Shown here in pieces: positions 330 to 27,295 of a stretch of 64,000 nt of DNA. The number at the start of each line of letters is the position of its first letter. Within the stretch, counting starts at the first letter, position 1. A program made the position numbers and the translations under genes. The stretch is from an uncultured Bacteroidales bacterium. Its GTDB lineage: Bacteria; Bacteroidota; Bacteroidia; Bacteroidales; UBA932. Where the stretch lies: NCBI GenBank assembly GCA_947306365.1, contig CAMZGD010000008.1, forward strand, positions 1 through 64,000, written 5' to 3'. Under the pieces are notes generated by a model, which saw nothing but the letters and a program-made list of their open reading frames with translations, made no database searches and had not been told where the DNA came from.

Positions 330-357
330 TATTATCGAAATTCCACTGCTAAAATAA

Positions 358-555: not shown

Positions 556-595
556 GGCGGGACCGTTAGCGTGAAAGCCCAAAAGTAACGAATGA

Positions 596-1664: not shown

Positions 1665-1665
1665 A

Positions 1666-1701
1666 TTTGCGCCTATGGCCGTAATCGGGCAGTGGCGCAA
1701 A
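1666..1701 (+). terminator. Putative terminator downstream of fic
   Basis: Two bases after the fic stop codon an 8-bp perfect inverted repeat, TTTGCGCC (1666-1673) and GGCGCAAA (1694-1701), encloses a 20-base loop. The 3' arm is followed by AATACTACC rather than a strong T-tract, so it may be a weak terminator or an mRNA 3'-end structure. Confidence 0.4.
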
Positions 1702-2026
1702 AATACTACCGTTAGAATCCCCTCCAACACACATCGACTTGCGGCTATTTGGCAGAATAAACTTGCGTTCTTCGAGAGACTTGGCTCCATTCAGGATAGC
1801 AGAATGACGCGAGAATCCTATGCTTATAATACCGACAATCGGGTATTCTTCGTAATTCGTCAGTTACAACTGATGAATTTGCTTCATGCGCCTTCAAGTA
1901 AATCCCGGGGCCTGACACAATCCTGCCAAGGGAATGCGCAGCGCTGCGAACACAATCCCCGCAAATTAAGGTTATTTTTCATATTTTTATGTTGCGAAAT
2001 GCCATGCATCATCGTCTTATAAGTGT
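1702..2026. other. Intergenic stretch upstream of the ECF operon with two palindromes
   Basis: No convincing gene is present. Two inverted repeats stand out at 1829-1846 and 1854-1879 (annotated separately). The last 60 bases before the sigma-factor gene are very AT-rich and likely carry its promoter, but I cannot find a good TAnnTTTG box. Confidence 0.5.
1829..1879. promoter_or_regulatory. Two adjacent palindromes upstream of the ECF operon
   Basis: The first, ATACCGACAATCGGGTAT (1829-1846), is an inverted repeat of ATACCGA and CGGGTAT and resembles the palindrome upstream of the PAS-RidA ORF at 6396-6421. The second (1854-1879) is a 26-bp palindrome AATTC-G-TCAGTT-AC-AACTGA-T-GAATT with one mismatched pair. 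Both sit 150-200 bp before the sigma gene and could be operators; neither has a T-tract. Confidence 0.35.
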
Positions 2027-2500
2027 ATGTTTGGATATTCAAGGGACATCGATTCAGAATTCATAAATCGCGCATGCCGTTTTGCATACACGATTCTTAT
2101 GGATGAGGAGGAAGCCAGAGACGCCGTACAGGATGTCCTGTTAAAGATATACTCCAAACATCTATTCGTCATCAACATGGAGTCGTATATCATACGCTCT
2201 GTACGGAACAACTGCCTCGACAGAATCAGATGTCGGAAAAATTGGTGCTCCTTGGCGGACTTACGGGAAATGGAAGGATCGCCGAACGCGAATGACGATA
2301 AAAACCTGGTGCGATTTGCCATTGCAAAGTTGCCGGACAAACAAAAGATGGTGATTCATCTTAAAGATATCGAAGGATATTCCACAAAAGATGTTTCCAA
2401 ACTATTGGGCATTGATGAGAATCAAATTAGAACCATTCTTTCACGTGCCAGAAAAGCCATGAGAGTTATAATTGAAAAGGAAATGCAAGATGGAGAATAA
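2027..2500 (+). CDS. ECF-type RNA polymerase sigma factor
   Basis: The 157-residue protein has the two-domain layout of group 4 sigma factors: region 2 at about residues 10-70 (YTILMDEEEARDAVQDVLLKIY, which binds the polymerase and the -10 element) and region 4 at about 98-150 (ALPDKQ-like LPDKQKMVIHLKDIEGYS, then a helix-turn-helix ending ILSRARKAMR). It would direct polymerase to a small regulon in response to an envelope signal. Three genes follow in the same direction with overlaps or short gaps: a membrane anti-sigma-like protein, an outer-membrane protein and a DUF4252 protein, a common Bacteroidales arrangement. The initiating ATG at 2027 is the first in frame. Confidence 0.9.
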   Translation: MFGYSRDIDSEFINRACRFAYTILMDEEEARDAVQDVLLKIYSKHLFVINMESYIIRSVRNNCLDRIRCRKNWCSLADLREMEGSPNANDDKNLVRFAIAKLPDKQKMVIHLKDIEGYSTKDVSKLLGIDENQIRTILSRARKAMRVIIEKEMQDGE

Positions 2501-2912
2501 TATCGATCAGATACGAGCACTTATCCAGAAGTGGTATGAAGGGGAAAACTCTGTCAAAGAAGAAGAAATGCTTCGTGCTTTCTTTCTGTCTTCAGATACT
2601 TTAGACCTACCGAAGGATATGAAAACCGCAGCTTCTATCTTTCGCGGAGAAGCCGGCATTAGAAAAGAAAACTTCCCCGGAATAGAAAAGAAGAGTTCGC
2701 ATAGATTCAGTTATTTTAGTATGATAATGGCGTTAGCTGCATCTGTGGCCCTTATCTTTTTCATTTGGGGAAGGAAAGAAACCTTCGGCTTCAATTACGA
2801 CGGATCAAAGATAACCGAGAAATCTGATGCAATGGCAAGTGCAGAGTATATGCAATATCTCGATTTGCTGGAAGACAATTTAAATATGATAACATACCTT
2901 AAATTACCTTAA
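2490..2912 (+). CDS. Single-pass membrane protein, probable anti-sigma factor
   Basis: The 140-residue product overlaps the end of the sigma-factor gene by 11 bp, which suggests translational coupling. Residues 1-70 are soluble and charged and resemble the cytosolic N-terminus of short Bacteroidetes anti-sigma proteins; residues about 74-95 (FSYFSMIMALAASVALIFFIW) form one membrane segment; the last 45 residues would be periplasmic. A TTG start at 2472 would add six residues, but ATG at 2490 is more natural. The anti-sigma role is inferred from position and topology, since I see no zinc-binding HxxxCxxC motif. Confidence 0.7.
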   Translation: MENNIDQIRALIQKWYEGENSVKEEEMLRAFFLSSDTLDLPKDMKTAASIFRGEAGIRKENFPGIEKKSSHRFSYFSMIMALAASVALIFFIWGRKETFGFNYDGSKITEKSDAMASAEYMQYLDLLEDNLNMITYLKLP

Positions 2913-2923
2913 ATAACTATAAT

Positions 2924-3703
2924 ATGAAGAAAATCATCATTTTGGCATTATTTGCCTTACTTTTCAAATCTTTGGCCTTTGCTCAAGATTCGGAAGAAAT
3001 TGGAATCAGCTCAACCAAAGATGGCATGACGATTAATATTGCCGGGGTTAATATTCAGATTGGCTCACCCAAAGAAGATCAGTTCAGTTTCGGCAATAAA
3101 AGCAAAAGCAAATTTGAGTTTGATCTGATCGGCCCTTTTTATCATGGCTGGAGTAAACCGGTACAATCTCAGTATTACGGCGATTGGGCCGGTCACGGAG
3201 ACTTCTTACTTCCCAGCGACGCCTTCTCTTTCGGAATGACTTTTTGTCGTTTCTCTTTTGGATTAGACTGTAGTAATTCATTCAAATTGAATATCGCAGG
3301 AAGGTGGACATGGACAGATTATTATTTCAAGGAGGGTTTTATCCTTAAGGATGTTACTCCGGGACATACGATTCCGGTTTTCGAGAACACTGACATCCGT
3401 TCGAAATTCTACACGTCTTATATGGGAATACCTGTAGGGCTCTCCTATGAAATTGGAGATGTTAAAGTTGCCGCCAACATCTCTGCTGAATGGCTTTTAA
3501 AATCATACTCCAGATACAAGGGATCCAAGGAAGAAGAGCAAATATCCTGTATTAATGATTTCAGGAGTTCTGTGGACCTGATGGTCACTTATGGGTGGAT
3601 AGGGGCTTATGTCGGATATGGTCTTACGCCTATGTTCCTCCCTGATTCCGGCAATGATGCACACACCCTCACTTTTGGCTTTGTATTCGGGTTCTCATTA
3701 TGA
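2924..3703 (+). CDS. Outer-membrane beta-barrel protein, ECF-operon member
   Basis: The 259-residue protein has a clear signal peptide (MKKIIILALFALLFKSLAFA-Q). The rest is rich in alternating aromatic and polar residues and ends in VFGFSL, a terminal aromatic/hydrophobic beta-signal typical of outer-membrane barrels. After cleavage, about 60 residues precede the first likely strand (KFEFDLIG). No known enzymatic motif is visible. It lies 11 bp after the anti-sigma-like gene and overlaps the next gene by 4 bp (ATGA), so all four are probably one operon. Its role may be to sense or repair envelope change. Confidence 0.7.
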   Translation: MKKIIILALFALLFKSLAFAQDSEEIGISSTKDGMTINIAGVNIQIGSPKEDQFSFGNKSKSKFEFDLIGPFYHGWSKPVQSQYYGDWAGHGDFLLPSDAFSFGMTFCRFSFGLDCSNSFKLNIAGRWTWTDYYFKEGFILKDVTPGHTIPVFENTDIRSKFYTSYMGIPVGLSYEIGDVKVAANISAEWLLKSYSRYKGSKEEEQISCINDFRSSVDLMVTYGWIGAYVGYGLTPMFLPDSGNDAHTLTFGFVFGFSL

Positions 3704-4158
3704 AAAAGTTAGCAGTTATTTCCCTTATTTTGGCCATGTGCCTGCCGGCATATGCCAATACCTCCGATCTCGACGGTCTATTTGAAGCCTATGCTGCGGT
3801 CCCGGGATACAAGACGGTTATACTCGGTCCGAAGATACTTCAAACAATGGCGAAAAATGGTTCTGAAGAATCTGACATTATAAAAAACATCGAACAAATC
3901 AGGGTTCTCTCCACTTTGGAACCAGATGACAATTTGTTCCTTAAAGCCCAGTCAATCGCAGAGTCTGAATACGAGCAGGTTTCTATCAATATGGAAGGAG
4001 ATGATTATACTGGCTTTTATATCAAGGATTCTTATGACAAAAAAATGTCATTCCTCATGATAGCCAGACGGGAAGAACAAGATATTATAATGGAAATCTC
4101 CGGATATTTCTCAATCAAAGATATCTCAATATTGTCAAATATCGGTTCTTACAAGTAA
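3700..4158 (+). CDS. DUF4252 family secreted protein
   Basis: The 152-residue protein starts with a signal peptide (MKKLAVISLILAMCLPAYA) and matches the size and pattern of DUF4252 proteins, which in Bacteroidetes often accompany ECF sigma/anti-sigma pairs. Features include an early helical segment (LDGLFEAYAAVPGYKTVILG), a middle helix with IEQIRVLS, and a C-terminal beta segment (IIMEISGYFSIKDISILS). The biochemical function of the family is unknown. The gene overlaps the preceding stop codon by 4 bp and is followed at once by a strong terminator, so it closes the operon. Confidence 0.75.
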   Translation: MKKLAVISLILAMCLPAYANTSDLDGLFEAYAAVPGYKTVILGPKILQTMAKNGSEESDIIKNIEQIRVLSTLEPDDNLFLKAQSIAESEYEQVSINMEGDDYTGFYIKDSYDKKMSFLMIARREEQDIIMEISGYFSIKDISILSNIGSYK

Positions 4159-4179
4159 CAGGCATATCCGGTATAACTT

Positions 4180-4218
4180 AAAGGGGCATCGGCGCAAAAA
4201 CGCGACCGATGCCCCTTT
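4180..4218. terminator. Strong hairpin terminator after the ECF operon
   Basis: A perfect 13-bp stem, AAAGGGGCATCGG (4180-4192) with CCGATGCCCCTTT (4206-4218), encloses a 13-base loop. The flanking A and T runs let it work in both directions. It ends the operon 2027-4158. Confidence 0.85.
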
Positions 4219-4447
4219 GTCTTAAAACGTATCCCCAAAGTAGATATTCTTTCAAGACAAAGATTATAATATTTCTGGACACGTTCAACCATACGCCCTC
4301 CCTCGTTTTGAACTTGTGCATTATTTGCACAGGTTGAGCCCTCTTCCAGTTCCCCGCTCCAATAGATATTGCCTATATGCCGAACGATAACCGTACGCTT
4401 CATACTCAAGAAAAAACTCGGAAGTGAGATTAACCGTATTTTATAGT
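4219..4447. other. Gene-free stretch before the flavin reductase gene
   Basis: About 230 bp between terminator and promoter contain no believable gene. A minus-strand frame overlapping it has no recognisable family and crosses the terminator. The right copy of the 35-bp direct repeat is at 4407-4441. Confidence 0.5.
4407..4441 (+). repeat. 35-bp imperfect direct repeat, right copy
   Basis: This copy begins CAAGAAAAAACTCGG and contains AGATTAACCGT. It agrees with 371-405 at 31 of 35 positions and marks the right end of the AT-rich segment. GC-rich genes begin immediately downstream. Confidence 0.5.
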
Positions 4448-4455
4448 TATCTTTG
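4448..4455 (+). promoter_or_regulatory. TATCTTTG promoter -7 box, flavin reductase gene
   Basis: TATCTTTG matches the Bacteroidetes -7 consensus TAnnTTTG. Only four bases separate it from ATG 4460, so the transcript would have almost no leader. Confidence 0.6.
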
Positions 4456-4459
4456 GCGT

Positions 4460-5062
4460 ATGAAAAAGATTATCACCCTTTTATTCACTGCGATTGCTAT
4501 CATGAGCTGCAACAAGACACCCCAAACGACAGAGACAACCGGGACCCTGCGCGACAAGCCCTGGCAGGAAATAGCGCCTTCCCAGATTGAATTGAATCCC
4601 CTGCAGATGATTGACAAGGACTGGCTGGAAGTTTCGGCCGGAAAGGAAGGAAAGATGAACCTGATGACCATCTCATGGGGCAGCATCGGCGAACTGTGGG
4701 GCAAACCCGTCTTCACAGTTTACGTATCCACCAGTCGCTATACACACCAGTTTATGGAGGAGAACGAGTACTTCACCGTGACGCACTTCCCTGCTTCAAT
4801 GAAAGAAAAACTGGCCTACTTGGGGCGCGTTTCCGGAAGGGACGAAGATAAGGTAGCCGGCGCCGGGCTCACTGTAGAATTCACCGAACTGGGCAATCCC
4901 ATCTATGCCGAGGCCGACCTGGCCATCGAATGCAAAAAGATCTACGCCCAGCAATTCAATGCGGATTTGCTCCCCGCCGAGCAACGGGAATGGTATGAGA
5001 AGACCGGAATCGGCATCCACTACATGTATATCGGAGAAATCCTCCACGTCTGGAAGAAATAG
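4460..5062 (+). CDS. Flavin reductase-like split-barrel protein with lipoprotein signal
   Basis: The 200-residue protein begins with a lipoprotein signal peptide whose lipobox reads AIMSC, so it should be anchored outside the cytoplasm. Residues about 45-195 match the FMN-binding split-barrel fold of flavin reductase-like proteins (MNLMTISWGSIGELWGKP, the TVYVSTSRYTHQFM strand, then YFTVTHFP and LAYLGRVSGRDEDK). Family members bind FMN and reduce flavin or act in electron transfer. Most are cytoplasmic, so the lipid anchor is unusual. A GTG start at 4424 would add 12 residues and spoil the signal peptide, so ATG 4460 is preferred. Confidence 0.8.
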   Translation: MKKIITLLFTAIAIMSCNKTPQTTETTGTLRDKPWQEIAPSQIELNPLQMIDKDWLEVSAGKEGKMNLMTISWGSIGELWGKPVFTVYVSTSRYTHQFMEENEYFTVTHFPASMKEKLAYLGRVSGRDEDKVAGAGLTVEFTELGNPIYAEADLAIECKKIYAQQFNADLLPAEQREWYEKTGIGIHYMYIGEILHVWKK

Positions 5063-16111: not shown

Positions 16112-16196
16112 GGAAGGTTGGCCGAGTGGTCGATGGCGGCAGTCTTGAAAACTGTTAGGCGGCAACGCCTCAGGGGTTCGAATCCCTTACCTTCCG
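16112..16196 (+). tRNA. tRNA-Ser (anticodon UGA)
   Basis: An 85-base cloverleaf can be drawn: acceptor GGAAGGT (16112-16118) pairs with ACCTTCC (16189-16195), with G at 16196 as discriminator. The anticodon loop CTTGAAA carries TGA at 16146-16148. A long variable arm (TAGGCGGCAACGCCT) and a T-loop GGTTCGAAT follow, as expected for a class II serine tRNA. The CCA tail is not encoded and must be added after transcription. The last 10 bases overlap the 3' end of lspA on the other strand. Confidence 0.95.
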
Positions 16197-16780
16197 CTCT
16201 CCGATTCCTCTTTTCCCGCAAAGAATTTCCACTGGAAGACCAGCAGATAGATCGCGCCGCAGGTGATGCAGCTGTCCGCGAAGTTGAAGATCGGCCGGAA
16301 GAAGATGATGTGCCGTCCGCCCCAAAACGGGAAATTCGCGGGCAGCGTCGTGTCGATGAGCGGGAAATAGAGCATGTCCACCACCTTGCCGTAGAGGAAC
16401 GGTGCATGCGGCTCGAACAGCAGCCCGTAGAACATCGAATCGATCATATTGCCCATTGCACCGCAAAGGATGGCCGCAAGGCCGACCAGTACGCCATTGG
16501 GTGTATCCGGTTTCTTCAGCAGTTTCCGCAGGTAGATGATGATCAGTGCAATCAGGATGATGCGGCAGAGGCTGAGCGCCAGCTTGCCCCATCCATCGCC
16601 GAACTGCAGGCCGAAGGCCATGCCGTTGTTTTCGATGAAGAGAATCTGGAACCATTTGCCGAAGACGGGGATGCTCTGGCCGACGGTCATGTTCGTCTTG
16701 ACCAGGATCTTGATGACCTGGTCGATGACGAGGAGGAGAACAACGAGCAGCGTGATCCGGGTTCCCTTCGAGACTTTCAT
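16187..16780 (-). CDS. lspA: Lipoprotein signal peptidase (signal peptidase II)
   Basis: The 197-residue protein is the inner-membrane aspartyl protease that cuts signal peptides from prolipoproteins after lipid attachment. Four membrane segments are visible, and both catalytic aspartates sit in conserved contexts: GAMGNMIDSMFYG and FNFADSCITCGA. The FIENNGMAFGL segment is also typical (family E/NxGxAF). A longer frame begins at 16810, but MKVSKGTRITLL at 16780 fits better. Its stop codon lies inside the tRNA-Ser acceptor/T-arm region. It is transcribed after the DksA-like gene and probably ileS. It serves the many lipoproteins encoded in this window. Confidence 0.95.
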   Translation of the reverse strand: MKVSKGTRITLLVVLLLVIDQVIKILVKTNMTVGQSIPVFGKWFQILFIENNGMAFGLQFGDGWGKLALSLCRIILIALIIIYLRKLLKKPDTPNGVLVGLAAILCGAMGNMIDSMFYGLLFEPHAPFLYGKVVDMLYFPLIDTTLPANFPFWGGRHIIFFRPIFNFADSCITCGAIYLLVFQWKFFAGKEESESGR

Positions 16781-17224: not shown

Positions 17225-20200
17225 TTATTTCAATTTCACAACAGCTATCGCCAGCATCCCCTCTTCCCACTCGACTTCCACCGCACCGGCCGGATCGGGC
17301 GCGAACCGGATGGCGCGCGCCAGCGTCTGGTTGCAGACATACGGTCCGAACTGCGACAGGGCCTCCTCCAGCGACGGATTCGGGGCGATGACCACTTCGA
17401 TGCGGTCAGTCACGTCGAAGCCGGCGGCCTTCCGGAGGTTCTGGATGCGGTTTACCAATTCCCGTGCCAGTCCCTCCTGCCGAAGCTCCGGCGTTATCTC
17501 GATGTCGAGCGCAACCGTCAGGGCGCCCTGCGAAGCGACGAGCCAGCCCGGCATGTCTTCCGAGGAAATCTGGCAGTCACCCGGATTGAGTTCCACTTCC
17601 CCGCCCGGGAGACCGAGCCGGTAAGGCGCTCCCGCCGTGTCCGCCCGCTGGATCTCCGAAATCACGGACTGGTCCAGCGCGGCGAAGGCCGCCGCGATCT
17701 CTTTCATCCGGGAACCATACACCTTGCCCAGCGTCTTGAAATTCGGCTTGATCTTCTTGACGAGGATGCCGTCCGTATTCTCCACGAACGCCATCTCCTT
17801 CACGTTCACTTCGGTCAGGATCAGATCCTTCACGGCCGTCAGCCGGGCGCGGACCTTGTCGGAGATGACCGGGACCAGCATCTTCGGCAGCGGCTGCCGC
17901 ACCGGAATCCCCACTTTCTTGCGGAGCGCCAGCACCATCGAGGCGGCCGCCTGGGAAAGGCTGACCCGTTCCTCGAGTTCGGAATCGATCGCCGCCGCGG
18001 AGACCTCCGGCATCTGCACGAAGTGCACGGATGCCTCGCCCCGGCCCGCCGTCAGGTCGAGATAGAGCCGGTCGGCGAAGAACGGCGCGATCGGGGCCAT
18101 CAGCACGGCGACGTCGCGCAGCGCGGTATAGAGCGTCTGGTAGGCGGCCTGCTTGTCGGCAGTCATCGCGCCGGCCCAGTAACGTTTCCGATTCAGATGG
18201 ACATACCAGTTCGACAGGTCGTCGCAGACGAAGCTCTCGATCAGGCGGCCCGCCGTCTTGATATCGTAGTCCTCATAGGCGGCGCGGACGGCGCGGACCA
18301 GGGAGTTGAGCCGCGAGATGATCCATCGGTCGATTTCCTGGCCGGATACCGGTTCGGAGCCGGGCGTCCATCCGTCGATGTTGGCGTACAGGGCGAAGAA
18401 GGCGTATGTATTGTAGAGCGTCCCGAAGAACTTGCGGCGCACCTCGTCCACCCCGCTCTCATCGAACTTCAGGTTGTCCCAGGGTTCCGCATTGGTGAGC
18501 ATGTACCAGCGGAGCGCATCCGCGCCATAGGTATCGAGCGCCTTGAACGGATCGACCGCATTGCCCAGGCGCTTGCTCATCTTGTTGCCGGCCTTGTCGA
18601 GCACCAGGCCGTTCGAAATCACGCGCCGGAACGCCGGCGTTCCGCTGACCATCGTATGGATGGCGTGCAGCGTATAGAACCAGCCGCGCGTCTGGTCGAC
18701 GCCCTCGGCGATGAAATCGGCCGTCACGCCGAAGCGGCTGTCGCCCAGATGCCGCAGTCCTTCCTGGGCATAGGGCATCGCGCCGGAATCGAACCAGACG
18801 TCGATCAGGTCGCTCTCGCGGACCATCCTGCGACCGGACGGGGAAACCAGGAAAATCTCGTCGACATACGGCCGGTGAAGATCGATCCGGGCAAAATTAT
18901 CCGCACCCGGGTCTGAAGGATCGAACCCCTTCTCCTTCATCGGGTTGGACTTCATCACGCCGGCGGCCACGGCTTTCTCGATCTCCGCATAGAGTTCGGC
19001 GGCCGATCCGATGCAGATTTCCTCCTTCCCGTCTTCCGTACGCCAGATCGGCAGCGGCGTCCCCCAAAAACGGCTGCGGCTCAGGTTCCAGTCCTGGATG
19101 TTCTCCAGCCACTGGCCGAATCGCCCGGTACCGGTGGAAGCCGGCTTCCAGGTGATCTGCCGGTTCAGGGCCACCATCTCGTCCTTCACGGCCGTCGCCC
19201 GGATGAACCAGGCGTCGAGCGGATAGTAGAGCACCGGCATGTCAGTCCGCCAGCTGTGCGGATAGCTGTGCACGTGCTTCTGCACCTTGAAGGCACGGCC
19301 GTCGGCCTTCATCATCACGCAAAGGTCCACGTCGAGGCTGGTTTCTTCCTCCACGTGTTCGAAGTACTGCTTATACCCCGCCTTCACATACCGGCCGGCG
19401 AATTCCCGGTAGGAAGGGTCCACGTTGTCCGCCACGTAGCCGGGATCCAGGTCTTCCAGCCGGCAGAAGCGTCCCTGCCGGTCCACCTGCGCCTGCGGAT
19501 TGCCGTCCCGGTCGACCGGGAGAATGCCCACGATGCCCGCGGCGGCGGCGACGCGCTTGTCGTCGGCGCCGAAGGTCGGGGCGATGTGCACGATGCCCGT
19601 TCCGTCTTCCGTCGTCACATAGTCGCCGGGAATCACCCGGAAGGCATCGCCCTGGGGCTTGAACCAGGGAATCAGCTGCCGGTAGCGCATGCCGGTCAGT
19701 TCGGAACCTTTGAAGGTCCCCGTCAGTTTCTGCCAGGGGACCAGCTTGTCTCCCTTCCTGTACGCGTCCAGGGGCAGGTTTTCGGCCTTTGGGTTGAACC
19801 AGGCGCCGACCAGCGCCTCCGCCAGCAGATACACGGCCGGCTCGCCCGAATACGGATTGAACGACTGCACGCGGACATAGTCGATGTCCGGTCCCACGCA
19901 GAGCGCCGTATTGGAAGGCAGCGTCCACGGGGTGGTGGTCCAGGCCAGGAAGCAGAGCCGCAGGCCGGGCGCGAAGAATCGCTCCGAAGCCGCATCCCGG
20001 ACAACCTCGAACTGCACCGTCGCCGTGGTATCGGTCACGTCGCGGTAACAGCCCGGCTGGTTGAGCTCGTGGGAACTGAGGCCCGTGCCGTCGGTCGGCG
20101 AATAGGGCTGGATGGTAAAGCCTTTGTAAAGAAGGCCTTTCCCATAGATTTTCTTCAGCAGGTACCACAACGTTTCGATGTAGCGGTTGTCGTACGTGAT

Positions 20201-20644
20201 GTACGGATCGTCCAGGTCCACCCAGTAACCGATCCGCTCGGTCAGGCTGGCCCATTCCGCCGTATATTTCATCACCTCCTTCCGGCAGGTGGCGTTGTAC
20301 TCCGCGATGGAGAGTTTCGTGCCGATGTCCGCCTTGGTGATGCCGAGTTTCTTCTCGACGCCGAGCTCGACGGGAAGGCCGTGGGTGTCCCATCCGGCCC
20401 TGCGCTCGACGTGGTATCCGGTCTGCGTCTTGTAACGGCACACCGCATCCTTGATGGAGCGGGCCATCACGTGATGGATGCCGGGCATTCCATTGGCGGA
20501 AGGCGGACCTTCAAAAAAGATGAATTCCGGAGCGCCTTCGCTCATTTTCAGGACTTTCCGGAACGTATCCTCCTTCTTCCACCTTTCCGCGATCTCATTG
20601 CCCGTCGCCACGAGATCCAGTTTCTTATACTCGGCAAAACGCAT
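17225..20644 (-). CDS. ileS: Isoleucine-tRNA ligase
   Basis: The 1139-residue class I synthetase charges tRNA-Ile. The HIGH-type signature lies in FEGPPSANGMPGIHHVMARS and the KMSKS-type loop in KAGNKMSKRLGNAVDP. RRAGWDTHGLPVELGVEKKL and LYKGFTIQPYSPTDGTGLSS mark the catalytic and editing regions. Length and motif style match the longer, eukaryote-like IleS2 form found in Bacteroidetes, a form that is often naturally insensitive to mupirocin. The chosen start gives MRFAEYKKLDLV; the longer frame to 20680 runs into the promoter. The promoter TATCTTTG is at 20678-20685 on the minus strand. Confidence 0.97.
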   Translation of the reverse strand: MRFAEYKKLDLVATGNEIAERWKKEDTFRKVLKMSEGAPEFIFFEGPPSANGMPGIHHVMARSIKDAVCRYKTQTGYHVERRAGWDTHGLPVELGVEKKLGITKADIGTKLSIAEYNATCRKEVMKYTAEWASLTERIGYWVDLDDPYITYDNRYIETLWYLLKKIYGKGLLYKGFTIQPYSPTDGTGLSSHELNQPGCYRDVTDTTATVQFEVVRDAASERFFAPGLRLCFLAWTTTPWTLPSNTALCVGPDIDYVRVQSFNPYSGEPAVYLLAEALVGAWFNPKAENLPLDAYRKGDKLVPWQKLTGTFKGSELTGMRYRQLIPWFKPQGDAFRVIPGDYVTTEDGTGIVHIAPTFGADDKRVAAAAGIVGILPVDRDGNPQAQVDRQGRFCRLEDLDPGYVADNVDPSYREFAGRYVKAGYKQYFEHVEEETSLDVDLCVMMKADGRAFKVQKHVHSYPHSWRTDMPVLYYPLDAWFIRATAVKDEMVALNRQITWKPASTGTGRFGQWLENIQDWNLSRSRFWGTPLPIWRTEDGKEEICIGSAAELYAEIEKAVAAGVMKSNPMKEKGFDPSDPGADNFARIDLHRPYVDEIFLVSPSGRRMVRESDLIDVWFDSGAMPYAQEGLRHLGDSRFGVTADFIAEGVDQTRGWFYTLHAIHTMVSGTPAFRRVISNGLVLDKAGNKMSKRLGNAVDPFKALDTYGADALRWYMLTNAEPWDNLKFDESGVDEVRRKFFGTLYNTYAFFALYANIDGWTPGSEPVSGQEIDRWIISRLNSLVRAVRAAYEDYDIKTAGRLIESFVCDDLSNWYVHLNRKRYWAGAMTADKQAAYQTLYTALRDVAVLMAPIAPFFADRLYLDLTAGRGEASVHFVQMPEVSAAAIDSELEERVSLSQAAASMVLALRKKVGIPVRQPLPKMLVPVISDKVRARLTAVKDLILTEVNVKEMAFVENTDGILVKKIKPNFKTLGKVYGSRMKEIAAAFAALDQSVISEIQRADTAGAPYRLGLPGGEVELNPGDCQISSEDMPGWLVASQGALTVALDIEITPELRQEGLARELVNRIQNLRKAAGFDVTDRIEVVIAPNPSLEEALSQFGPYVCNQTLARAIRFAPDPAGAVEVEWEEGMLAIAVVKLK

Positions 20645-20677
20645 AACTGAACGATCGTTTATTTCATTTTGAATTTG

Positions 20678-20704
20678 CAAAGATACGATAATTCACTAAT
20701 TTTG
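20678..20704. promoter_or_regulatory. Divergent promoters of ileS and cvpA
   Basis: On the minus strand TATCTTTG (20678-20685) stands 33 bp before ileS. On the plus strand TAATTTTG (20697-20704) stands 24 bp before cvpA. Both match TAnnTTTG. Confidence 0.65.
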
Positions 20705-20728: not shown

Positions 20729-21229
20729 ATGGGTGCCGTTGATATCGTCATCGTCTGCTGTTTTCTCCCGGTCCTCTACTTCGGCATCAAGAACGGCCTG
20801 GTCAGGCAGCTGGTCGCTTTCGCTGTCGTCTTCTTCGGACTCAAGCTCTCCCTGAAGTTCGCCGCCCCCCTGGCCGAATGGGCGCTCCAGCACATCAAAT
20901 TCCCCGAATTCTGGGCAAAAGTCATTTCCTTCATCCTGATTTTTTTCGTAGTTGCGCTGCTTTTGAACGCATTGGGCAGGATTGTCGAAAAAATAATCAA
21001 GATTTCCATGCTGGGCTGGCTCAACAAACTGTTGGGAATCCTGATGACGTTCTGCCTGTTCGCCCTGGTGATTTCCGTGCTCGTCTATTTCGTGGATTCT
21101 GCCAATAACCTGCTGGAATTCATACCGAAAGAGAAACTGGAGGAATCCCGTTTCTACCCTGCCCTGCTCCAGCTCGCCCAGGACGTCTTCCCGCATTTCA
21201 AGGAGTTGTTCCAACAGGCGGAAATTTAA
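20729..21229 (+). CDS. cvpA: CvpA family membrane protein
   Basis: The 166-residue protein has four hydrophobic segments in the CvpA pattern: DIVIVCCFLPVLYFGIKNGL (the family signature for the first helix and the KNGLVRQL turn), VVFFGLKLSLKF, FWAKVISFILIFFVVALLLN and LLGILMTFCLFALVISVLVYFVD. CvpA homologues are inner-membrane proteins linked to colicin V production and envelope stress tolerance, with unknown chemistry. It precedes the peptide-export locus, but the 98-bp gap with hairpins suggests a separate transcript. Confidence 0.85.
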   Translation: MGAVDIVIVCCFLPVLYFGIKNGLVRQLVAFAVVFFGLKLSLKFAAPLAEWALQHIKFPEFWAKVISFILIFFVVALLLNALGRIVEKIIKISMLGWLNKLLGILMTFCLFALVISVLVYFVDSANNLLEFIPKEKLEESRFYPALLQLAQDVFPHFKELFQQAEI

Positions 21230-21326: not shown

Positions 21327-21479
21327 ATGGAACCCGAGAACCGGATACGACAGTTGACCGACATGGATGTGGCAGCGGACATTCTTCTGCCCGATTCCAT
21401 TCTTTCTGGCTTTCTCTATGCACTTCTGCTTGCGGCAACCCTGTCGCTGTCCATCCTGTCGGTCATTTTTTTCCTGTAG
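21327..21479 (+). CDS. Small single-pass membrane protein at the head of the peptide-export locus
   Basis: The 50-residue product has a charged N-terminus (MEPENRIRQLTDMDVAADIL) and a C-terminal membrane helix of about 25 residues (FLYALLLAATLSLSILSVIF) that ends at the C-terminus. I do not recognise a family. Its place directly before a C39-peptidase ABC transporter and its size fit an immunity or accessory protein of a bacteriocin locus, but this is inference only. A longer in-frame start at 21261 is unlikely because it would begin within the hairpin region. Confidence 0.45.
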   Translation: MEPENRIRQLTDMDVAADILLPDSILSGFLYALLLAATLSLSILSVIFFL

Positions 21480-21489
21480 GACAAAACCC

Positions 21490-21555
21490 GGAGGGAGCGA
21501 GCGGGAGAACGTCTTGAAGGGCGAAAGACACGTGCGGGAGAACTCCCTCCTTTTA
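21490..21555 (+). promoter_or_regulatory. Structured leader of the C39 ABC transporter gene (hairpin plus T-tract)
   Basis: GGAGGGAG (21490-21497) can pair with CTCCCTCC (21543-21550), which is followed by TTTTATT; the ATG comes at 21567. Between the arms, GCGGGAGAAC occurs twice (21501-21510 and 21534-21543). The arrangement resembles an attenuator, or a structure that controls ribosome access, for the transporter gene. Confidence 0.4.
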
Positions 21556-21566
21556 TTGAAAGAACC

Positions 21567-23645
21567 ATGAAAACAGCCATCCGACAACACGACGTAACCG
21601 ACTGCGCGGCGGCCTGCATCGCCTCGATCGCCCGCTGGTACGGCCGATACGTTCCGTTGACGACCATCCGGGAGGCATCCGGCACGTCCACCGCGGGGAC
21701 CAGCATCAAGGGAATCCTCGACGCCTGCCGGGAAATCGGGTTCCGCGCCGTTGCCTATAAGTCGGAAGACAAGCAGCTCGAAAACTTGTACGGCCTTTCC
21801 CGGCCCGTCATCCTCCACGTCGTCAACAAGCAGGGAGACCTGCATTTCATCGTACTCCACGCCGTGTCCGCGCGCCACGCGCGCATCATGGATCCGGGCA
21901 CCGGGAAAATCACCCGGACAGACACCGCCGCGCTCCGGGACGCCTGGACCGGCTATCTGGTCACGATGGCTCCCGAAACCGACGCCCGGGAAACCGGGGA
22001 AAACGGCATGGAGGCACAGAAACCCCTGCAACATACCTTGTTCCATTGTCTTCGATTCCTTTCCGTCCGCGATTTCCTGCTGATGCTGGCCGGATCGGTC
22101 GTCTATATCGTGGCCGGCATCTGCACGGCCCTCTTCCTGCAGCACATCATCGACGGCATCCTGCCCGGGCACGACCTGTCCAGACTCTGGAAGACCTCGC
22201 TCCTGATGCTGGCCGTGATGGCGTGCACCCTGCTGGTCGGCTACGGCCGCATCCTCTATGCGCTCCGGCTGAGCATCTCGCTCGACAGCCGCCTGATCCT
22301 CGGCTATCTGCAGCACCTTTTCCGGCTGCCCGCCGCCTTTTTCACCCGGCGGGGCGCCGGGGAACTGCACGCCCGGATCGGCGACGCGGCCAAGGTCAGG
22401 CACTTCCTGATCGACGGCATCTCGACCCTGCTGACCAGCAGCCTGATCCTTATCGTCTCGTTTACCCTGATGTTCACCCTGCATTGGCGGCTGGCCCTTC
22501 TAATGCTGACATTCATTCCGATCTATCTGATCCTGTACCTGTTCGCCGACCGGGTGAACAGAAGGGTAAACCGGGACATTATCGAACAGTCCGCCGCGTT
22601 CGAGGAACGCACCGTGGAAGGCATCGTCGCCGTCCGGGTCATCCGCTACTACGGAAACGGCGAACGGCTGCTGCACAGCATCGAGCGGGAATACCGGCTG
22701 CTGGCGCAGAAACTCTTCCGGGGCGGACGGTGGGCGGACGGATTCGCATCGGCCGCCGACGGAATCGCCAAGACCCTCACGCTTACGCTGCTGACGGCCG
22801 GTTCTCTCTACCTGTTCTCCGGATCGCTCACCGTCGGCGTCCTGGTTTCCTTCTACTCCCTGACCGCCTGGTTCTCGGCGCCGCTCGAGGAGATCGTCAA
22901 GATCAGCGACTCGCTCACCGAGGCCCGGATCGCCTTCGAACGGCTGAACGACATCACGCAGCTCAGCCCCGAAGAAACGGGCATCAGCCACTTCCTGCCG
23001 AAAGCGGGCGACGACCTGGTCTTCGACCGCATCACCTTCTCCTACCCCGGCAGTCCGGAACTGCTCAAGGACTTCTGCCTCACGCTGAAAGCGGGACGCA
23101 TCACGGCCGTCCAGGGACCGAGCGGATGCGGGAAAAGCTCGCTTGCCGCCCTGCTGATGCGGGACTACGCCGTACAGAAAGGCGTCATCCGGCTCGGGGC
23201 GCACGACATCCGTCTCTTCTCGCTGGAAGCCTGGCGCCGATTCGTCTCGATCGTACCGCAGGAACCTCAGCTGCTCAACGCGTCGATTCTCGACAACATC
23301 GCGTGCCTGGACCCGGCACCTGACGTCGAACGGGTCGTGCAGCTGCTGGACGAACTGAACCTGCGTTCCCTGGTCCAGGGACTGCCGATGGGCGTCTTCA
23401 CCCGGATCGGAAACCGGGGCGGCCTCCTTTCGGGCGGACAGCGGCAACGGATCGCCCTGGCCCGCGCACTCTATCACCGGCCCGAGCTGCTCATTCTCGA
23501 CGAGGCCACCGCGTCGCTCGACGAGGAATCCCGACAGTGCCTCCTGCGGCGGGTATCCCGTTTCCGGGACGAAGGCGGCACCGTGATGATGATCACGCAC
23601 CTGGCCGACAACACCCGCATCGCCGACGCGGTCGTCAACCTGTAA
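21567..23645 (+). CDS. Peptidase-containing ABC transporter (C39 bacteriocin exporter)
   Basis: The 692-residue protein combines three parts. Residues 1-140 are a C39 peptidase: QHDVTDCAAACIAS with catalytic Cys13, His93 in DLHFIVLHAV and Asp109 in IMDPGTGK; Gln7 forms the oxyanion hole. This domain cuts leader peptides after a double glycine. Residues about 165-440 form the six-helix ABC membrane domain. Residues about 480-692 are the ATPase with Walker A GPSGCGKSS (from residue 517), the signature LSGGQRQR (about 621), Walker B LLILDEATAS and the switch His in ITHLAD. The enzyme should cleave and export the two small precursors encoded next, working with the TolC-like and HlyD-like proteins downstream. 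Confidence 0.95.
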   Translation: MKTAIRQHDVTDCAAACIASIARWYGRYVPLTTIREASGTSTAGTSIKGILDACREIGFRAVAYKSEDKQLENLYGLSRPVILHVVNKQGDLHFIVLHAVSARHARIMDPGTGKITRTDTAALRDAWTGYLVTMAPETDARETGENGMEAQKPLQHTLFHCLRFLSVRDFLLMLAGSVVYIVAGICTALFLQHIIDGILPGHDLSRLWKTSLLMLAVMACTLLVGYGRILYALRLSISLDSRLILGYLQHLFRLPAAFFTRRGAGELHARIGDAAKVRHFLIDGISTLLTSSLILIVSFTLMFTLHWRLALLMLTFIPIYLILYLFADRVNRRVNRDIIEQSAAFEERTVEGIVAVRVIRYYGNGERLLHSIEREYRLLAQKLFRGGRWADGFASAADGIAKTLTLTLLTAGSLYLFSGSLTVGVLVSFYSLTAWFSAPLEEIVKISDSLTEARIAFERLNDITQLSPEETGISHFLPKAGDDLVFDRITFSYPGSPELLKDFCLTLKAGRITAVQGPSGCGKSSLAALLMRDYAVQKGVIRLGAHDIRLFSLEAWRRFVSIVPQEPQLLNASILDNIACLDPAPDVERVVQLLDELNLRSLVQGLPMGVFTRIGNRGGLLSGGQRQRIALARALYHRPELLILDEATASLDEESRQCLLRRVSRFRDEGGTVMMITHLADNTRIADAVVNL

Positions 23646-23709
23646 ACCACATTCAAGCCATATCGAATCCGTGCGCACGGAACAAGGTCAATTCCAGACA
23701 CCTGTAAGG

Positions 23710-23934
23710 ATGGAACCACAAAAACCAAACAAACCGATGGAAGAAACAATGATGTTAGGACGGGGTTTGAGAGAACTGCATTCTTCCGAACTCCAGATGC
23801 GGGGCGGAGCCGCCAGCGGCTTTTTCGCCACCATCTTCGAAAAAATCCGCAACCTGATCGACACGATCGCAGACTATCTGCCGAATTTCCTGAAAGGGAT
23901 CAAAGACGGATTCCTGGGCAAGAACGGCGAATGA
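23710..23934 (+). CDS. Double-glycine precursor peptide 1 (bacteriocin-like)
   Basis: The 74-residue product carries a leader of the kind cut by C39 peptidases: LRELHSSELQMRGG ends at Gly33. The mature part of about 41 residues (AASGFFATIFEKIRN, then NFLKGIKDGFLGKNGE) is an amphipathic helix of nearly zero net charge with a GxxxG motif (G63-I-K-D-G67), a hallmark of two-peptide class IIb bacteriocins. The EL pair stands one residue closer to GG than usual, so cutting after Gly33-Ala34 is also possible. Starts at 23737 or 23749 would shorten only the leader. It lies 64 bp after the transporter and 15 bp before peptide 2. Confidence 0.75.
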   Translation: MEPQKPNKPMEETMMLGRGLRELHSSELQMRGGAASGFFATIFEKIRNLIDTIADYLPNFLKGIKDGFLGKNGE

Positions 23935-23949
23935 CGGGAGGACACGGCC

Positions 23950-24105
23950 ATGTACGAACTCAAGATGGAAGAAGCCGCCCAGGTATGGGGCGGCGTGGAC
24001 AAGAAAGCGCAGGACGCGCTCTACACGATCGGCTACATCCTCGGCGTCATCGCCCGCTATGTCGGCGCCCTGTTCCTTTTCAAGAAGGAACGGCCGACCG
24101 CCTGA
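23950..24105 (+). CDS. Double-glycine precursor peptide 2 (bacteriocin-like)
   Basis: This 51-codon gene is short enough to be missed by routine calling. Its leader MYELKMEEAAQVWGG fits the C39 consensus exactly in register: Leu at -12, Glu at -8, Val at -4, Gly-Gly at -2/-1. The mature 36-residue peptide starts VDKKAQDALY and has a hydrophobic helix (YTIGYILGVIARYVGALFLF) containing GxxxG (G28-Y-I-L-G32) and a basic tail (KKERPTA). A GGGAGGA ribosome-binding-like site lies 7 bp upstream, rare in this genome and consistent with strong expression. With peptide 1 it would form a two-component, membrane-active pair. It could instead be a signalling peptide. Confidence 0.75.
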   Translation: MYELKMEEAAQVWGGVDKKAQDALYTIGYILGVIARYVGALFLFKKERPTA

Positions 24106-24118
24106 AACCGCTCAATCC

Positions 24119-24145
24119 GGGTCTCTCTGCGGAGAGACCCCTTTT
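24119..24145 (+). terminator. Intrinsic terminator or attenuator between precursor genes and tolC-like gene
   Basis: A perfect 9-bp stem GGGTCTCTC (24119-24127) / GAGAGACCC (24132-24140) with the tetraloop TGCG is followed by CTTTT. The next ATG is at 24152. Most transcripts would stop here, leaving abundant precursor mRNA and limited read-through into the export genes. Confidence 0.8.
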
Positions 24146-24151
24146 GATTCG

Positions 24152-25450
24152 ATGAAAACGATTACGCTGACCCTGCTGCTGGCTTTCTCCGCCACCCTGT
24201 CTGCGCAGGAACCCTGGACATTGGAGCGGTGCATCCGCCACGGGCTGGAACACAATCCCGACATCCGGGCGCAACGCCTCGAGATCAGCGGACGGCAGCT
24301 GGAAACCACCCGCAAGACCCTCGCACATCTGCCGGTGGCCGGCATCTCCCTGGCCCGCGACTACAACTGGGGGCGCAGCGTCGACATGCAGGAACTGGTC
24401 ATTATCCGCAACCAGCTCACCCGCGCCAGCGGCATCCAGCTGCAGGCTTCCGTCGCGCTCTTCGAAGGCTTCACCCGGCACCTCGACCGCCTGGCTGCCC
24501 GGCAATCGGCGGAAACGGCCGCCATCGATGCCGAAGAGCTTGCCCGCACACTGACCCTCGACATCACCCGGGCCTATCTCCAGCTGATGCTGGCCGGACA
24601 GATAAGCACCTGCACGCAGGAAAACTACGCGACCATCGTCCGCCAGCGCGACCGGACCGCCCAGCTGGTAGAAGCCGGCAGCCAGCCCCAGAGCGCCCTG
24701 AACGAGATGCAGGCCCAGGTTGCGACGGAAAAGGCCGCCATGGTGGAAGCGGCCTGTCGCGTCCGGACGGCCCGGCTGGCCCTGATGCGGCTCCTGAACC
24801 TGCCATCCGAAGAACCGTTTGCCGTGGAAGGCCCGTCCGGCGATGAACAGCTGCCCGCCGGCCCGCCGGCCGTGTCCGCGGTCCGGCTGGAAGACGGCGT
24901 CTGCCGGGACCCCCGCATCCGGAGCGCCCGCTCGGCCATCGAGGAGATGCGCTACCGGCACGCTGCCGACAAGGGGTCTCTCCTGCCCGGTCTTTCCCTG
25001 GCGGCCGGCTACGGGACCTACTACAGCAGCGCAGCCGACGGGTCGCTGCGCACGCAGCTGGATGAAAACCGGAATCCGTCCCTGTCGTTCCGGCTGGAGA
25101 TCCCGGTCTTTCACGCCGGCGACCTGCTCATCCGGGTAAAGCGGAGCCGGCTGGACCTGGAACGGGCCCGGCTGAATGCCGAGAAGATGAAGCAGCAGGT
25201 CGAGGACGAGATCCGGAGTACGGCCATCGAGGCCGAAAACTGCTGCCAGAAGGTCCTTTCCGCGGAAGAGACACTGCACGCGATGCAGGACCTGCTCGCC
25301 ATTATGGAAGCCCGGTACAATCTGGGCGCCGCCACGGCGGTCGACTACATCACGGCCCGCAACCAACATTTCAAGGCAACCTCCGACTATCTCCAGGCCA
25401 AATGGCAGTACCTCTTCCAGCTCAAGCTGCTGGAACAATACAAACCCTGA
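24152..25450 (+). CDS. TolC-family outer-membrane efflux protein of the peptide exporter
   Basis: The 432-residue protein has a signal peptide (MKTITLTLLLAFSATLSA-Q) and the internal repeat of TolC-like factors: two long helical hairpins (residues about 25-200, TLERCIRHGLEHNPDIRAQR and LDITRAYLQLMLAGQI; and about 265-430, VCRDPRIRSARSAIEEMRYR and MEARYNLGAATAVDYITARN) with short barrel strands (VAGISLARDYNWGRS; LSLAAGYGTYY). It would form the outer-membrane channel through which the ABC exporter and HlyD adaptor push the cleaved peptides outside. The start at 24152 follows directly after the terminator hairpin; the longer frame from 24059 overlaps peptide 2. Confidence 0.9.
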   Translation: MKTITLTLLLAFSATLSAQEPWTLERCIRHGLEHNPDIRAQRLEISGRQLETTRKTLAHLPVAGISLARDYNWGRSVDMQELVIIRNQLTRASGIQLQASVALFEGFTRHLDRLAARQSAETAAIDAEELARTLTLDITRAYLQLMLAGQISTCTQENYATIVRQRDRTAQLVEAGSQPQSALNEMQAQVATEKAAMVEAACRVRTARLALMRLLNLPSEEPFAVEGPSGDEQLPAGPPAVSAVRLEDGVCRDPRIRSARSAIEEMRYRHAADKGSLLPGLSLAAGYGTYYSSAADGSLRTQLDENRNPSLSFRLEIPVFHAGDLLIRVKRSRLDLERARLNAEKMKQQVEDEIRSTAIEAENCCQKVLSAEETLHAMQDLLAIMEARYNLGAATAVDYITARNQHFKATSDYLQAKWQYLFQLKLLEQYKP

Positions 25451-25452
25451 AA

Positions 25453-26607
25453 ATGAACCGCAAGATAATCCGAAAATGGCTGCCCGTCGCCCTCGCCGGC
25501 GCCTTGCTGCTGCTGGTATTCCGTCCGGGACGCACGCCGCGTCTGGAGGTCCTCGTGCAACCGGCGGAACGCCGGGACCTCGTCGAGACCATTCCGGCAT
25601 CGGGCGTCATCCGGCCGGTCGTGGAAGTCAAGATCACGCCGGACGTCTCCGGGGAAGTCGTCGAACTGCGGGTACGCGAAGGCGATCCGGTGGAACAGGG
25701 CGACCTCATCCTGCGTATCCGTCAGGACCTCTACCTCTCGCAGGTGGAGCAGGCGGGCGCTTCGCTCGGAAGCCTGCGGGCCCAATACGCCCGACAACGG
25801 GCGGAAGTCCGGCAGGCACAGCTTATCTACGACCGGGACCGGAAACTCTTCGACCTCAACGCCGTGTCCGAAGCGGAGCTCCAGGCTTCGCGGACGTCGC
25901 TGGAAGTGGCCCGGAGCAGCCTCCGGGCGGCGGAATTCGCCATCCGCAGCGGCGAGGCGCAACTGAAGGAAGCACGGGAGAACCTCCAGAAGACCACGCT
26001 CTACGCGCCGATCAGCGGAACCGTGTCGCGCATCAACGTGGAAAAAGGCGAACGGGTGGTCGGAACCAGCCAGATGAGCGGCACGGAGCTCCTGCGGATC
26101 GCCGACCTGAGCCGGATGGAGGTTGTCGTCGAGGTGGGCGAAAGCGACATCGTCCGCATCGCACCCCTGGACAGCGTGGAAGTGGAAGTGGATGCCTATC
26201 CGCGGCAAAAATTCAGGGGCCGGGTGACCCAGACCGCAAATTCGGCAAAAAAACTGGAAGACCGCTTCGATCAAGTTACTAACTTTGCAGTCCGGATCGA
26301 GCTGCTGTCCGATTCGGTGAAGTTCCTGCCCGGCATGACCGCCGCCGTCTCCATCATCACGGAAAGACGCAACGGCTGCCTTACCCTGCCGGTCGAAAGC
26401 GTCTTCACCCGGAACAAGGAGGAGTTCGTCTGGATCGTCGGCCCCGGCAGCACCGCACAGGCAAGACGGGTCGTCACCGGCATCCAGCAGCAGGACCGCA
26501 TCGAAATCCGGGAAGGACTTTCCGAGGGCGACCCAGTCGTCGTCGGACCGCCCGACGCCGTCGGCAAGGGGATTGTCGAAGGACAGCGGCTCAAACCGTC
26601 GAACTAA
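25453..26607 (+). CDS. HlyD/RND-type periplasmic adaptor (membrane fusion protein)
   Basis: The 384-residue protein has one N-terminal membrane anchor (IIRKWLPVALAGALLLLVF), a biotinyl-lipoyl half (VKITPDVSGEVVELRVREGD), a long coiled-coil (about residues 95-180, LGSLRAQYARQRAEVRQAQL and LEVARSSLRAAEFAIRSGEA), the second lipoyl half (TTLYAPISGTVSRINVEKGE) and beta-barrel parts up to the C-terminus. It bridges the inner-membrane ABC exporter and the TolC-like channel. Two bases separate it from the tolC-like gene. No other ABC permease lies next to it, so the C39 exporter is its natural partner. Confidence 0.9.
   Translation: MNRKIIRKWLPVALAGALLLLVFRPGRTPRLEVLVQPAERRDLVETIPASGVIRPVVEVKITPDVSGEVVELRVREGDPVEQGDLILRIRQDLYLSQVEQAGASLGSLRAQYARQRAEVRQAQLIYDRDRKLFDLNAVSEAELQASRTSLEVARSSLRAAEFAIRSGEAQLKEARENLQKTTLYAPISGTVSRINVEKGERVVGTSQMSGTELLRIADLSRMEVVVEVGESDIVRIAPLDSVEVEVDAYPRQKFRGRVTQTANSAKKLEDRFDQVTNFAVRIELLSDSVKFLPGMTAAVSIITERRNGCLTLPVESVFTRNKEEFVWIVGPGSTAQARRVVTGIQQQDRIEIREGLSEGDPVVVGPPDAVGKGIVEGQRLKPSN
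26280..26287 (+). promoter_or_regulatory. Possible internal promoter in the hlyD-like gene for tsaB
   Basis: TAACTTTG inside the coding region is embedded in TTACTAACTTTGC, which is identical over 13 bases to the tRNA-Ser promoter region. It could start a transcript for tsaB about 330 bp downstream. The surrounding codons form a small AT-rich pocket. Confidence 0.25.
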
Positions 26608-26617
26608 ACACAAGAGG

Positions 26618-27295
26618 ATGAGTGAACGAATACTGATGATCGAGACCAGCACCGAATGCTGTTCAGTCGCGCTCTCTGACGGAGCACGGATCTGCGCCAG
26701 CCGCGTGAACGAGACGCCGCGGCAGCACGCATCGCAACTGGCCCCCTACCTGAAAGAAGTCCTGGACGAAGCCGGCATCACCGCCGCCGGTCTGGACGCC
26801 GTCGCCGTCAGCGAAGGGCCGGGATCCTATACCGGACTCCGCGTCGGGGTTTCGACGGCCAAGGGAATCTGCTTCGGGGCCGGAAAGCCCCTGATCGGCA
26901 TCGACACCCTCCAGATCCTCGCCCTGCAGGCCGATGCGGACTGCGACCGGATCGTCGCGATGATCGACGCGCGCCGGATGGAAGTCTACGCCGCCCCGTT
27001 CGACCTTTCGGGCCGCAAGCTCGGGGAGACGAAGGCCGTCATTCTCGACACCGACAGCTTCCGGCAGGAACTGGACGCCGGGCGCGTCCTGTTCATCGGC
27101 ACGGGTGTCGAAAAGTTCCGGCAGATCTGCACCCATCCCAACGCCCTCTTCCGCCCCTGCTTCCCGCTGGCCACCGCGATGCTCCAGCCTGCCAGGGAAG
27201 CCCTGCAAAAAAAAGGATTCAAAGACGTTGCGTACTTTGAACCCTTTTACCTGAAGGAATTCGTTGCCGGTATCAGCAAACGTTCCGTCCTGTAA
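26618..27295 (+). CDS. tsaB: tRNA threonylcarbamoyladenosine biosynthesis protein TsaB
   Basis: The 225-residue protein matches TsaB (YeaZ): ILMIETSTECCSVALSDG at the N-terminus (ASKHA actin-like fold), RQHASQLAPYLKEVLDEAGI and VSEGPGSYTGLRVGVSTAKG, the family signature. TsaB binds TsaD and TsaE in the complex that attaches threonylcarbamoyl to A37 of ANN-decoding tRNAs. It has no connection with peptide export and is only 10 bp after the hlyD-like gene, so it may be carried along or have its own internal promoter. The chosen ATG follows AGAGG. It converges with the next gene with a one-base gap. Confidence 0.92.
   Translation: MSERILMIETSTECCSVALSDGARICASRVNETPRQHASQLAPYLKEVLDEAGITAAGLDAVAVSEGPGSYTGLRVGVSTAKGICFGAGKPLIGIDTLQILALQADADCDRIVAMIDARRMEVYAAPFDLSGRKLGETKAVILDTDSFRQELDAGRVLFIGTGVEKFRQICTHPNALFRPCFPLATAMLQPAREALQKKGFKDVAYFEPFYLKEFVAGISKRSVL

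Follow-up and report, generated by a model that had tools for sequence, protein, structure and literature searches.

We have analysed a 64,000-nucleotide (nt) stretch of DNA (the window; positions 1 to 64,000 of contig CAMZGD010000008.1, assembly GCA_947306365.1) from an uncultured Bacteroidales bacterium, whose genus is taken to be Candidatus Cacconaster, a taxon assigned by GTDB to the family UBA932 (PMC8957277). Between the genes cvpA and tsaB the window carries a cassette read in a single direction (viz. orfX, a C39-peptidase ATP-binding cassette (ABC) exporter, the small genes pepA and pepB, a TolC-like channel, and a periplasmic adaptor). Across 11 genera of these gut Bacteroidales the locus has been passed on vertically, and within the genus it is core. 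Its two peptide genes encode adjacent precursors with double-glycine (GG) leaders, and the gene architecture, the motifs of the peptides and an Abi-type gene present in four lineages make the class IIb two-peptide bacteriocin their nearest known kind. Our favoured reading, held with a confidence just above even, is that of a two-peptide secretion system which works like a class IIb bacteriocin and is core in UBA932. An earlier reading of the window made from its letters alone (the original prediction) had described a double-glycine export locus, all of whose listed genes are present and point in one direction on the evidence of their open reading frames and Pfam and NCBIfam matches; it had missed both the core, vertical state of the locus and a covarying RNA pseudoknot that precedes pepA.

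The species distribution of the locus was established by profile searches and by reading the DNA around the exporter. The pepB gene is present in 37/40 genomes of the genus. The three genomes without it (G007, G012, and G020; such labels, and those with L or g, are our own) also have no cvpA match and no whole tsaB, the latter being a fragment at a contig start in G012 and a weak partial match in G020, and loss of the locus from them is rejected since those assemblies do not contain the region. The named relatives found with pepB are Bacteroidales metagenome-assembled genomes (MAGs), many of them from ruminants and horses and including five Candidatus Cacconaster species, and pepA is encoded just upstream of pepB in 31/31 of the named loci. 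A genus-level pepB profile matched none of the order sample's 392 other genomes, and its pepA counterpart matched 28/99 family genomes belonging to 8/25 genera; a family-wide pepA profile reached, in the order sample of 393 genomes, four family genomes including that of the window and four others weakly (E values of 6e-4 to 0.009). Of the 99 family genomes sampled, 46, representing 11/25 genera, have the exporter next to tsaB, and all 46 have two adjacent GG precursors by the exporter, this count having been completed from a separate reading of the stretches for L152, L155–L157, L161, and L167. In a tree of 76 exporter rows, which is a quick tree made without a mixture model, with long-branch warnings and with support of only 75 for g28 and 84 for g27, 8/9 of the genera represented by at least two rows are each set apart by a single branch; the exception is g208, which is split and needs two changes. 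The genus labels need 10 changes on this tree, which is the minimum; a value as low was reached in 0/200 shuffles. Distance correlations from gene to gene are modest, saturation and the partial rows for IleS having blurred them. A search of 72,556 plasmid records, which did not extend to phage records, gave no match to either peptide, and the idea of plasmid cargo is rejected on this ground together with the fixed cvpA–tsaB position and the genus-clustered tree.

Two adjacent GG precursors on the same strand occur in 76/76 loci in which that stretch is assembled, and the GG leaders and the C39 residues of the exporter are kept in all 76, with two pepB of g225 reading AG (L193 and L195). The two tiny precursors with C39-type leaders in the original prediction are thus present and conserved, but its start for pepA has to be moved: the gene most likely begins at the ATG at 23737 (MEE...) and not at the upstream GTG, because the former start is conserved across the genus. 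In the window, mature pepA has 41 amino acids (aa), a net charge of 0 and a high hydrophobic moment, and mature pepB has 36 aa, a charge of +3 and a hydrophobic stretch of 19 residues. Over the 76 loci the mature peptides are 28–51 aa long; net charge is above zero for 67/76 pepB, 38/76 pepA and 65/76 pair sums, and cysteine is present in 6/76 pepA and 18/76 pepB, those of the window being cysteine-free. The motif GxxxG is found in pepA at 74/76 loci (GxxxA at the other two) and in pepB at 70/76 (AxxxG at the other six), compared with 25% and 21% of shuffled peptides, respectively, so that GxxxG or a one-letter variant is present in both mature peptides at every locus. The glycines of this motif belong to the few invariant columns of the genus alignments, and GxxxG or GxxxG-like motifs are described as characteristic of two-peptide bacteriocins (PMC6957408).

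The original prediction had made its case depend on homologous precursor pairs beside C39 exporters in related genomes, which are found as described above, and on purifying selection on both reading frames. When 18 pairs of sisters or near-sisters are pooled, the ratio of nonsynonymous to synonymous change (dN/dS) of the mature peptides amounts to 0.129 (pepA) and 0.138 (pepB) and that of the exporter to 0.149, values that are approximate in view of the high synonymous divergence (pS of 0.55–0.59) of these parts; the leaders are looser, at 0.397 for pepA and 0.260 for pepB. Conservation, synteny and purifying selection together show the two peptides to be more than chance reading frames. In the same 18 pairs the leader of pepA (window 23740–23808) has an unusually low pS of 0.23 vs. 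0.56 in the mature part, which hints at a further RNA-level signal within the start of the coding sequence.

The exporter scores 92.2 bits for Peptidase_C39, 125.7 for ABC_membrane and 94.1 for ABC_tran, and its best relatives of solved structure include bacteriocin transporters of the C39 ABC kind, 4ry2 for example; ComA is also among those solved. The catalytic Cys13, His93, and Asp109 pointed out in the original prediction are, together with Gln7, invariant in 76/76 aligned relatives, and the C39 domain is predicted to cleave both precursors after GG. The next two genes had been called TolC-like and HlyD-like; the first name stands, but the adaptor is, by its model matches, of the MacA/RND type and not a classical type I HlyD, as it passes TIGR01730 (196 bits, cut-off 95) and falls below TIGR01843 (71 bits, cut-off 209). 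Exporter and peptide pair occur at the locus without TolC and adaptor there in two g219 genomes (L152 and L153), TolC and adaptor adjoin tsaB without exporter and pair in three family genomes (L222–L224), and a lone TolC stands beside tsaB in L219 and L220. Because the two blocks are found apart in relatives, the class IIb-like pair wired to a tripartite exporter in the original prediction is supported as regards the pair, but its coupling to the channel is to be put conditionally: the peptides would probably be exported through the neighbouring adaptor and TolC. The TolC and MacA-like adaptor of L222, L223, and L224 may serve another pump too.

In the gap between the exporter gene and pepA, a GCGC-loop hairpin comes first and an H-type pseudoknot second; from the end of the pseudoknot's last arm to the pepA start there are 16–29 nt (median 21; window 21). 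A pseudoknot scan that allowed 15–32 nt to the pepA start was applied to 72 of the 76 loci (all except L155, L156, L157, and L172). Scores of at least 20 were obtained in 66/72 loci vs. 97/3600 dinucleotide shuffles, and scores of at least 24 in 53/72 vs. 29/3600, under limits (loop, distance to ATG) that were tuned on the same data, an earlier version with shorter loops having missed the clade of the window, and that were applied equally to the shuffles. In a sequence-only alignment of 55/56 distinct elements that have both hairpin and pseudoknot, 86.2% of the cells are paired and covariation is 0.488 (slid maxima 47.3% and 0.178), with 12/14 pairs varying on both sides, a count also reached in 41/500 shuffles. 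After exclusion by hand of 9/28 rows from the genus and 3/28 from other genera, which were largely shifted by MAFFT, the 19 genus rows give 96.9% paired cells, 9/14 pairs and a covariation of 0.388 (slid maximum 0.145), and the 25 rows of other genera give 84.3%, 13/16 pairs and 0.462 (slid maximum 0.141), one of five measures (further pair types) not rising above shuffles in the latter set; as alignment rows were picked for having structure, all these covariation counts lean towards structure, a bias of which the 72-locus scan is free apart from the tuning of its limits.

No Rfam family was reached at the gathering threshold by the element of the window or by five relatives, and the element is a candidate for an uncatalogued regulatory RNA as far as this search goes. 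A covariance model placed its best site at the locus in 37/40 genus genomes, with an E value of 0.003 or better in 35 (G013 and G009 are weak), and its best matches away from the locus had E values of 3e-4 and 1e-3. The RNA looks specific to this gene pair. A riboswitch-like regulon is rejected, there being one strong copy per genome, at the locus, and weak matches elsewhere; a role in frameshifting is also rejected, as the pseudoknot has no constant position relative to the exporter stop but keeps its distance from the pepA start within the range given above. The pairs outside the family are without a pseudoknot, except perhaps that of G255.

With the class IIb bacteriocins (viz. lactobin A/cerein 7B, TIGR03949; lactococcin G, NF038034/NF038035) the locus shares adjacent GG precursors, a C39 exporter, a GxxxG or GxxxG-like motif in each mature peptide and, in some genera, a PF02517 gene after the pair. 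Proteins of the PF02517 type (CAAX/Abi) are described as linked to bacteriocin self-immunity (PMC10059821). The gene for such a membrane protein directly follows pepB in 6/6 g225 loci (57.7 and 54.5 for the two proteins scanned, cut-off 22.4), and in G477 (g221, UBA932) it lies between pepB and TolC (28.7 bits), in a divergent locus with a second adaptor before the exporter, a helix-turn-helix (HTH) gene after it and tsaB on another contig. Related exporters outside the family were found in 43 genomes; the stretches of 26 were examined, 17 reaching only 1.5 kb past the gene. An adjacent GG pair was detected in 5/26 of these stretches by a regular-expression search that had no chance control and one of whose pairs (L211) is plainly spurious, and in two of the five (G223 and G206, of other families) a PF02517 gene stands beside the pair. 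The TIGR03949 model (cut-off 21.5 bits) is passed by 4/6 peptides of non-core loci (G182, G255, G343, and G477), with 25.1 bits for pepA of G477, 27.0 and 42.0 for the G255 peptides and 24.2 for one G343 peptide. The GG-peptide pairs that adjoin C39 exporters in other Bacteroidales families (L122, L179, L180, L175, and L247), of which some pass TIGR03949 and two have a PF02517 neighbour, may be accessory class IIb systems.

On the class IIb-like reading, the C39 domain of the exporter would cut both precursors after GG and send out the mature peptides, which would probably leave the cell by way of the adjacent adaptor and channel. The pepA peptide, in the window a neutral putative amphipathic helix-former, and the cationic pepB peptide with its membrane-spanning-like stretch would then pair by their GxxxG motifs inside a target membrane and permeabilise it. 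The hairpin and pseudoknot would probably set the amount of the pair relative to the exporter, most simply by tuning the peptide:exporter ratio through translation or mRNA stability. In UBA932 the cassette would have become chromosomal between cvpA and tsaB and been passed on vertically from then on.

A number of our results weigh against this reading. The peptides of the window match no Pfam or NCBIfam family, as the original prediction had supposed, and no class IIb model. For peptides of the core locus, TIGR03949 was matched by 0/35 pepA and 0/29 pepB at an E value of 0.1, by 0/26 pepB at an E value of 1, and by 0/4 peptides given singly, and NF038034 (lactococcin G-beta) was reached only weakly, by 2/35 pepA (best E value 0.0012) and 1/26 pepB (0.009), the one identified pepA, from g222, scoring 15.1 bits vs. 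a cut-off of 37. The pepA peptide is not clearly cationic. In 53/99 family genomes the exporter is not linked to tsaB, a few of these cases being contig breaks. Core, vertical and constrained inheritance is unlike that of most bacteriocins; two-peptide bacteriocins are best known in Gram-positive bacteria and are usually patchy traits. As regards immunity, a regular-expression scan of 84 stretches revealed PF02517-like genes within UBA932 only in g225 and G477 (six further matches, for which no Pfam check was made, have the look of spurious frames), and none at the locus in the genus of the window. The alternative candidate, orfX, encodes a single-transmembrane protein by hydrophobicity and has a pooled dN/dS of 0.36 over 12 pairs; g28 and g219 loci showed no orfX, and its profile had no match at any position of the draft genomes of the clade G004/G008/G027 (78%, 60%, and 89% complete), which keep both peptides. 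The locus differs from class IIb in its Gram-negative host, its core and vertical state, the lack of a clear immunity gene in most genera and the RNA pseudoknot before the pair, and we do not claim class IIb membership for the pair of the window because the curated models are not reached and an immunity gene is present only as a candidate (orfX). The absence of an immunity gene is not decisive, since bacteroidetocin producers, which are described as having no immunity genes and as inhibiting themselves (PMC6671954), nevertheless kill.

Two readings are live: the pair may be a core antibacterial weapon, or it may have been domesticated and have taken on a new role. That the locus is a domesticated bacteriocin-type pair, core and mostly immunity-less, governed by a cis-acting RNA of a new class (an H-type pseudoknot preceded by a GCGC hairpin) and serving a need of its producer instead of killing, we regard as a tentative possibility. 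The related proposal that it descends from a class IIb-like system and has a constitutive role for the producer (envelope, kin contact, or niche conditioning), its immunity gene having therefore been lost in most genera, is unlikely, though still to be taken seriously. It would account for core, vertical inheritance, for the strong purifying selection, for the confinement of PF02517 genes at family loci to g225 and g221, for the absence of orfX where the peptides stay, and for the single-copy RNA element. However, the 53/99 family genomes without a tsaB-linked exporter and four genomes of three genera (L198–L201) that have clean empty sites, with cvpA directly beside tsaB, indicate that the locus is dispensable, and bacteroidetocins also lack immunity genes in the published description, yet kill (PMC6671954).

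The double-glycine peptides could instead be secreted signals, one or both of which report cell density or act on a distant sensor; pheromone systems, too, use GG leaders and C39 exporters. The original prediction had named this as the main alternative. We retain it as an improbable one: ComA among the solved relatives of the exporter, the conserved, core and fixed position of the locus, and the HTH gene of the divergent G477 locus are consistent with it, but Pfam and NCBIfam reveal no receptor, sensor kinase or regulator among the cassette genes of the window. Moreover, its mature peptides, with the lengths given above and consisting in the window of an amphipathic one and one with a hydrophobic stretch, argue against signalling, and GxxxG in both peptides suits helix pairing.

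Improbable as well is a third proposal, that the pair are contact-dependent glycine-zipper toxins retained on the cell surface. The Cdz system of Caulobacter, as described (PMC5380434), is likewise Gram-negative and type I-secreted and consists of two small proteins with GxxxG. CdzC/D are described, however, with extended glycine zippers, surface aggregates and a three-transmembrane immunity protein, CdzI, and many Cdz-like systems as horizontally acquired, whereas the extended GxxxGxxxG is present in just 3/76 pepA and 1/76 pepB and the present locus is vertical; this comparison was made by description, and no sequence link was sought. The chance of an artefact is negligible, since short frames are abundant but dN/dS of 0.13–0.14 together with leaders and a gene order conserved across 11 genera leads us to reject chance retention of small reading frames.

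Among systems described from the same phylum, the bacteroidetocins (Coyne et al., 2019; PMC6671954) share with our class IIb-like pair a Bacteroidetes host, a GG leader, a double-glycine peptidase ABC exporter and the reported lack of an obvious immunity gene. They differ in that a lone peptide of the class IIa-like type, containing two or more cysteines, is encoded near a five-transmembrane protein and usually a thiol oxidoreductase (PMC6671954); here there are two peptides, cysteine-free in the window, and other neighbours. The GG-precursor clusters of Bacteroidales with peptidase-containing ATP-binding transporters (PCATs) also combine C39 PCAT exporters with GG-motif precursors, but are described as clusters of ribosomally synthesised and post-translationally modified peptides (RiPPs) with modifying enzymes (PMC10352776), and no RiPP modifying enzymes were seen in the cassette of the window by Pfam and NCBIfam. 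Searches of the open-licence literature on two-peptide or class IIb bacteriocins, double-glycine peptides and microcin-type exporters in Bacteroidetes and Bacteroidales gave no description of the locus by title or abstract start among the matches listed, and 'Cacconaster' appears there in one paper only, a taxonomic one.

The coordinates of the cassette and its conserved flanks are summarized in Table 1. Elsewhere in the window, the sole tRNA found is a tRNA-Ser (tga) at 16112–16197. Positions 1–5000 have a GC content of 0.40–0.47 vs. ~0.60 over most of the window and are possibly an acquired segment; they encode a Fic-like protein (660–1664) and a sigma-factor-like/anti-sigma-like pair (2027–2912), named from the look of their sequences alone.

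Table 1. Features of the peptide export locus and its flanks, in window coordinates.
Feature	Position	Strand	Basis or details
ileS, isoleucyl-tRNA synthetase, conserved flank	17225..20680	-	Named from sequence; same flank in relatives
cvpA, colicin V production family, conserved left flank	20729..21229	+	PF02674, 83.2 bits; syntenic in relatives
orfX, 50-aa single-transmembrane protein, accessory or immunity candidate	21327..21479	+	One hydrophobic segment; dN/dS
C39-peptidase ABC exporter; C39 domain residues 4-138, C13/H93/D109	21567..23645	+	Pfam; invariance in 76/76
RNA element	23668..23715	+	P1 hairpin 23668-23681; pseudoknot S1 23685-23688/23700-23703, S2 23692-23696/23711-23715
pepA precursor, 65 aa: 24-aa GG leader + 41-aa mature peptide (23809-23931)	23737..23934	+	
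pepB precursor, 51 aa: 15-aa GG leader + 36-aa mature peptide (23995-24102)	23950..24105	+	
TolC-like outer-membrane channel	24152..25450	+	OEP, 144.0 bits
Periplasmic adaptor, MacA/RND-MFP-like	25453..26607	+	HlyD_D23, 76.2 bits; TIGR01730 above cut-off
tsaB, conserved right flank	26618..27295	+	TIGR03725, 179 bits; syntenic in relatives

In 11 genera of a family that is known from MAGs, the locus provides a constrained and syntenic peptide pair, and hence natural variants in which GxxxG pairs and the retention of such a system as a core trait can be studied. The empty sites and the patchy immunity candidates make the question of whether the pair serves UBA932 as a weapon or in housekeeping open to comparative testing.

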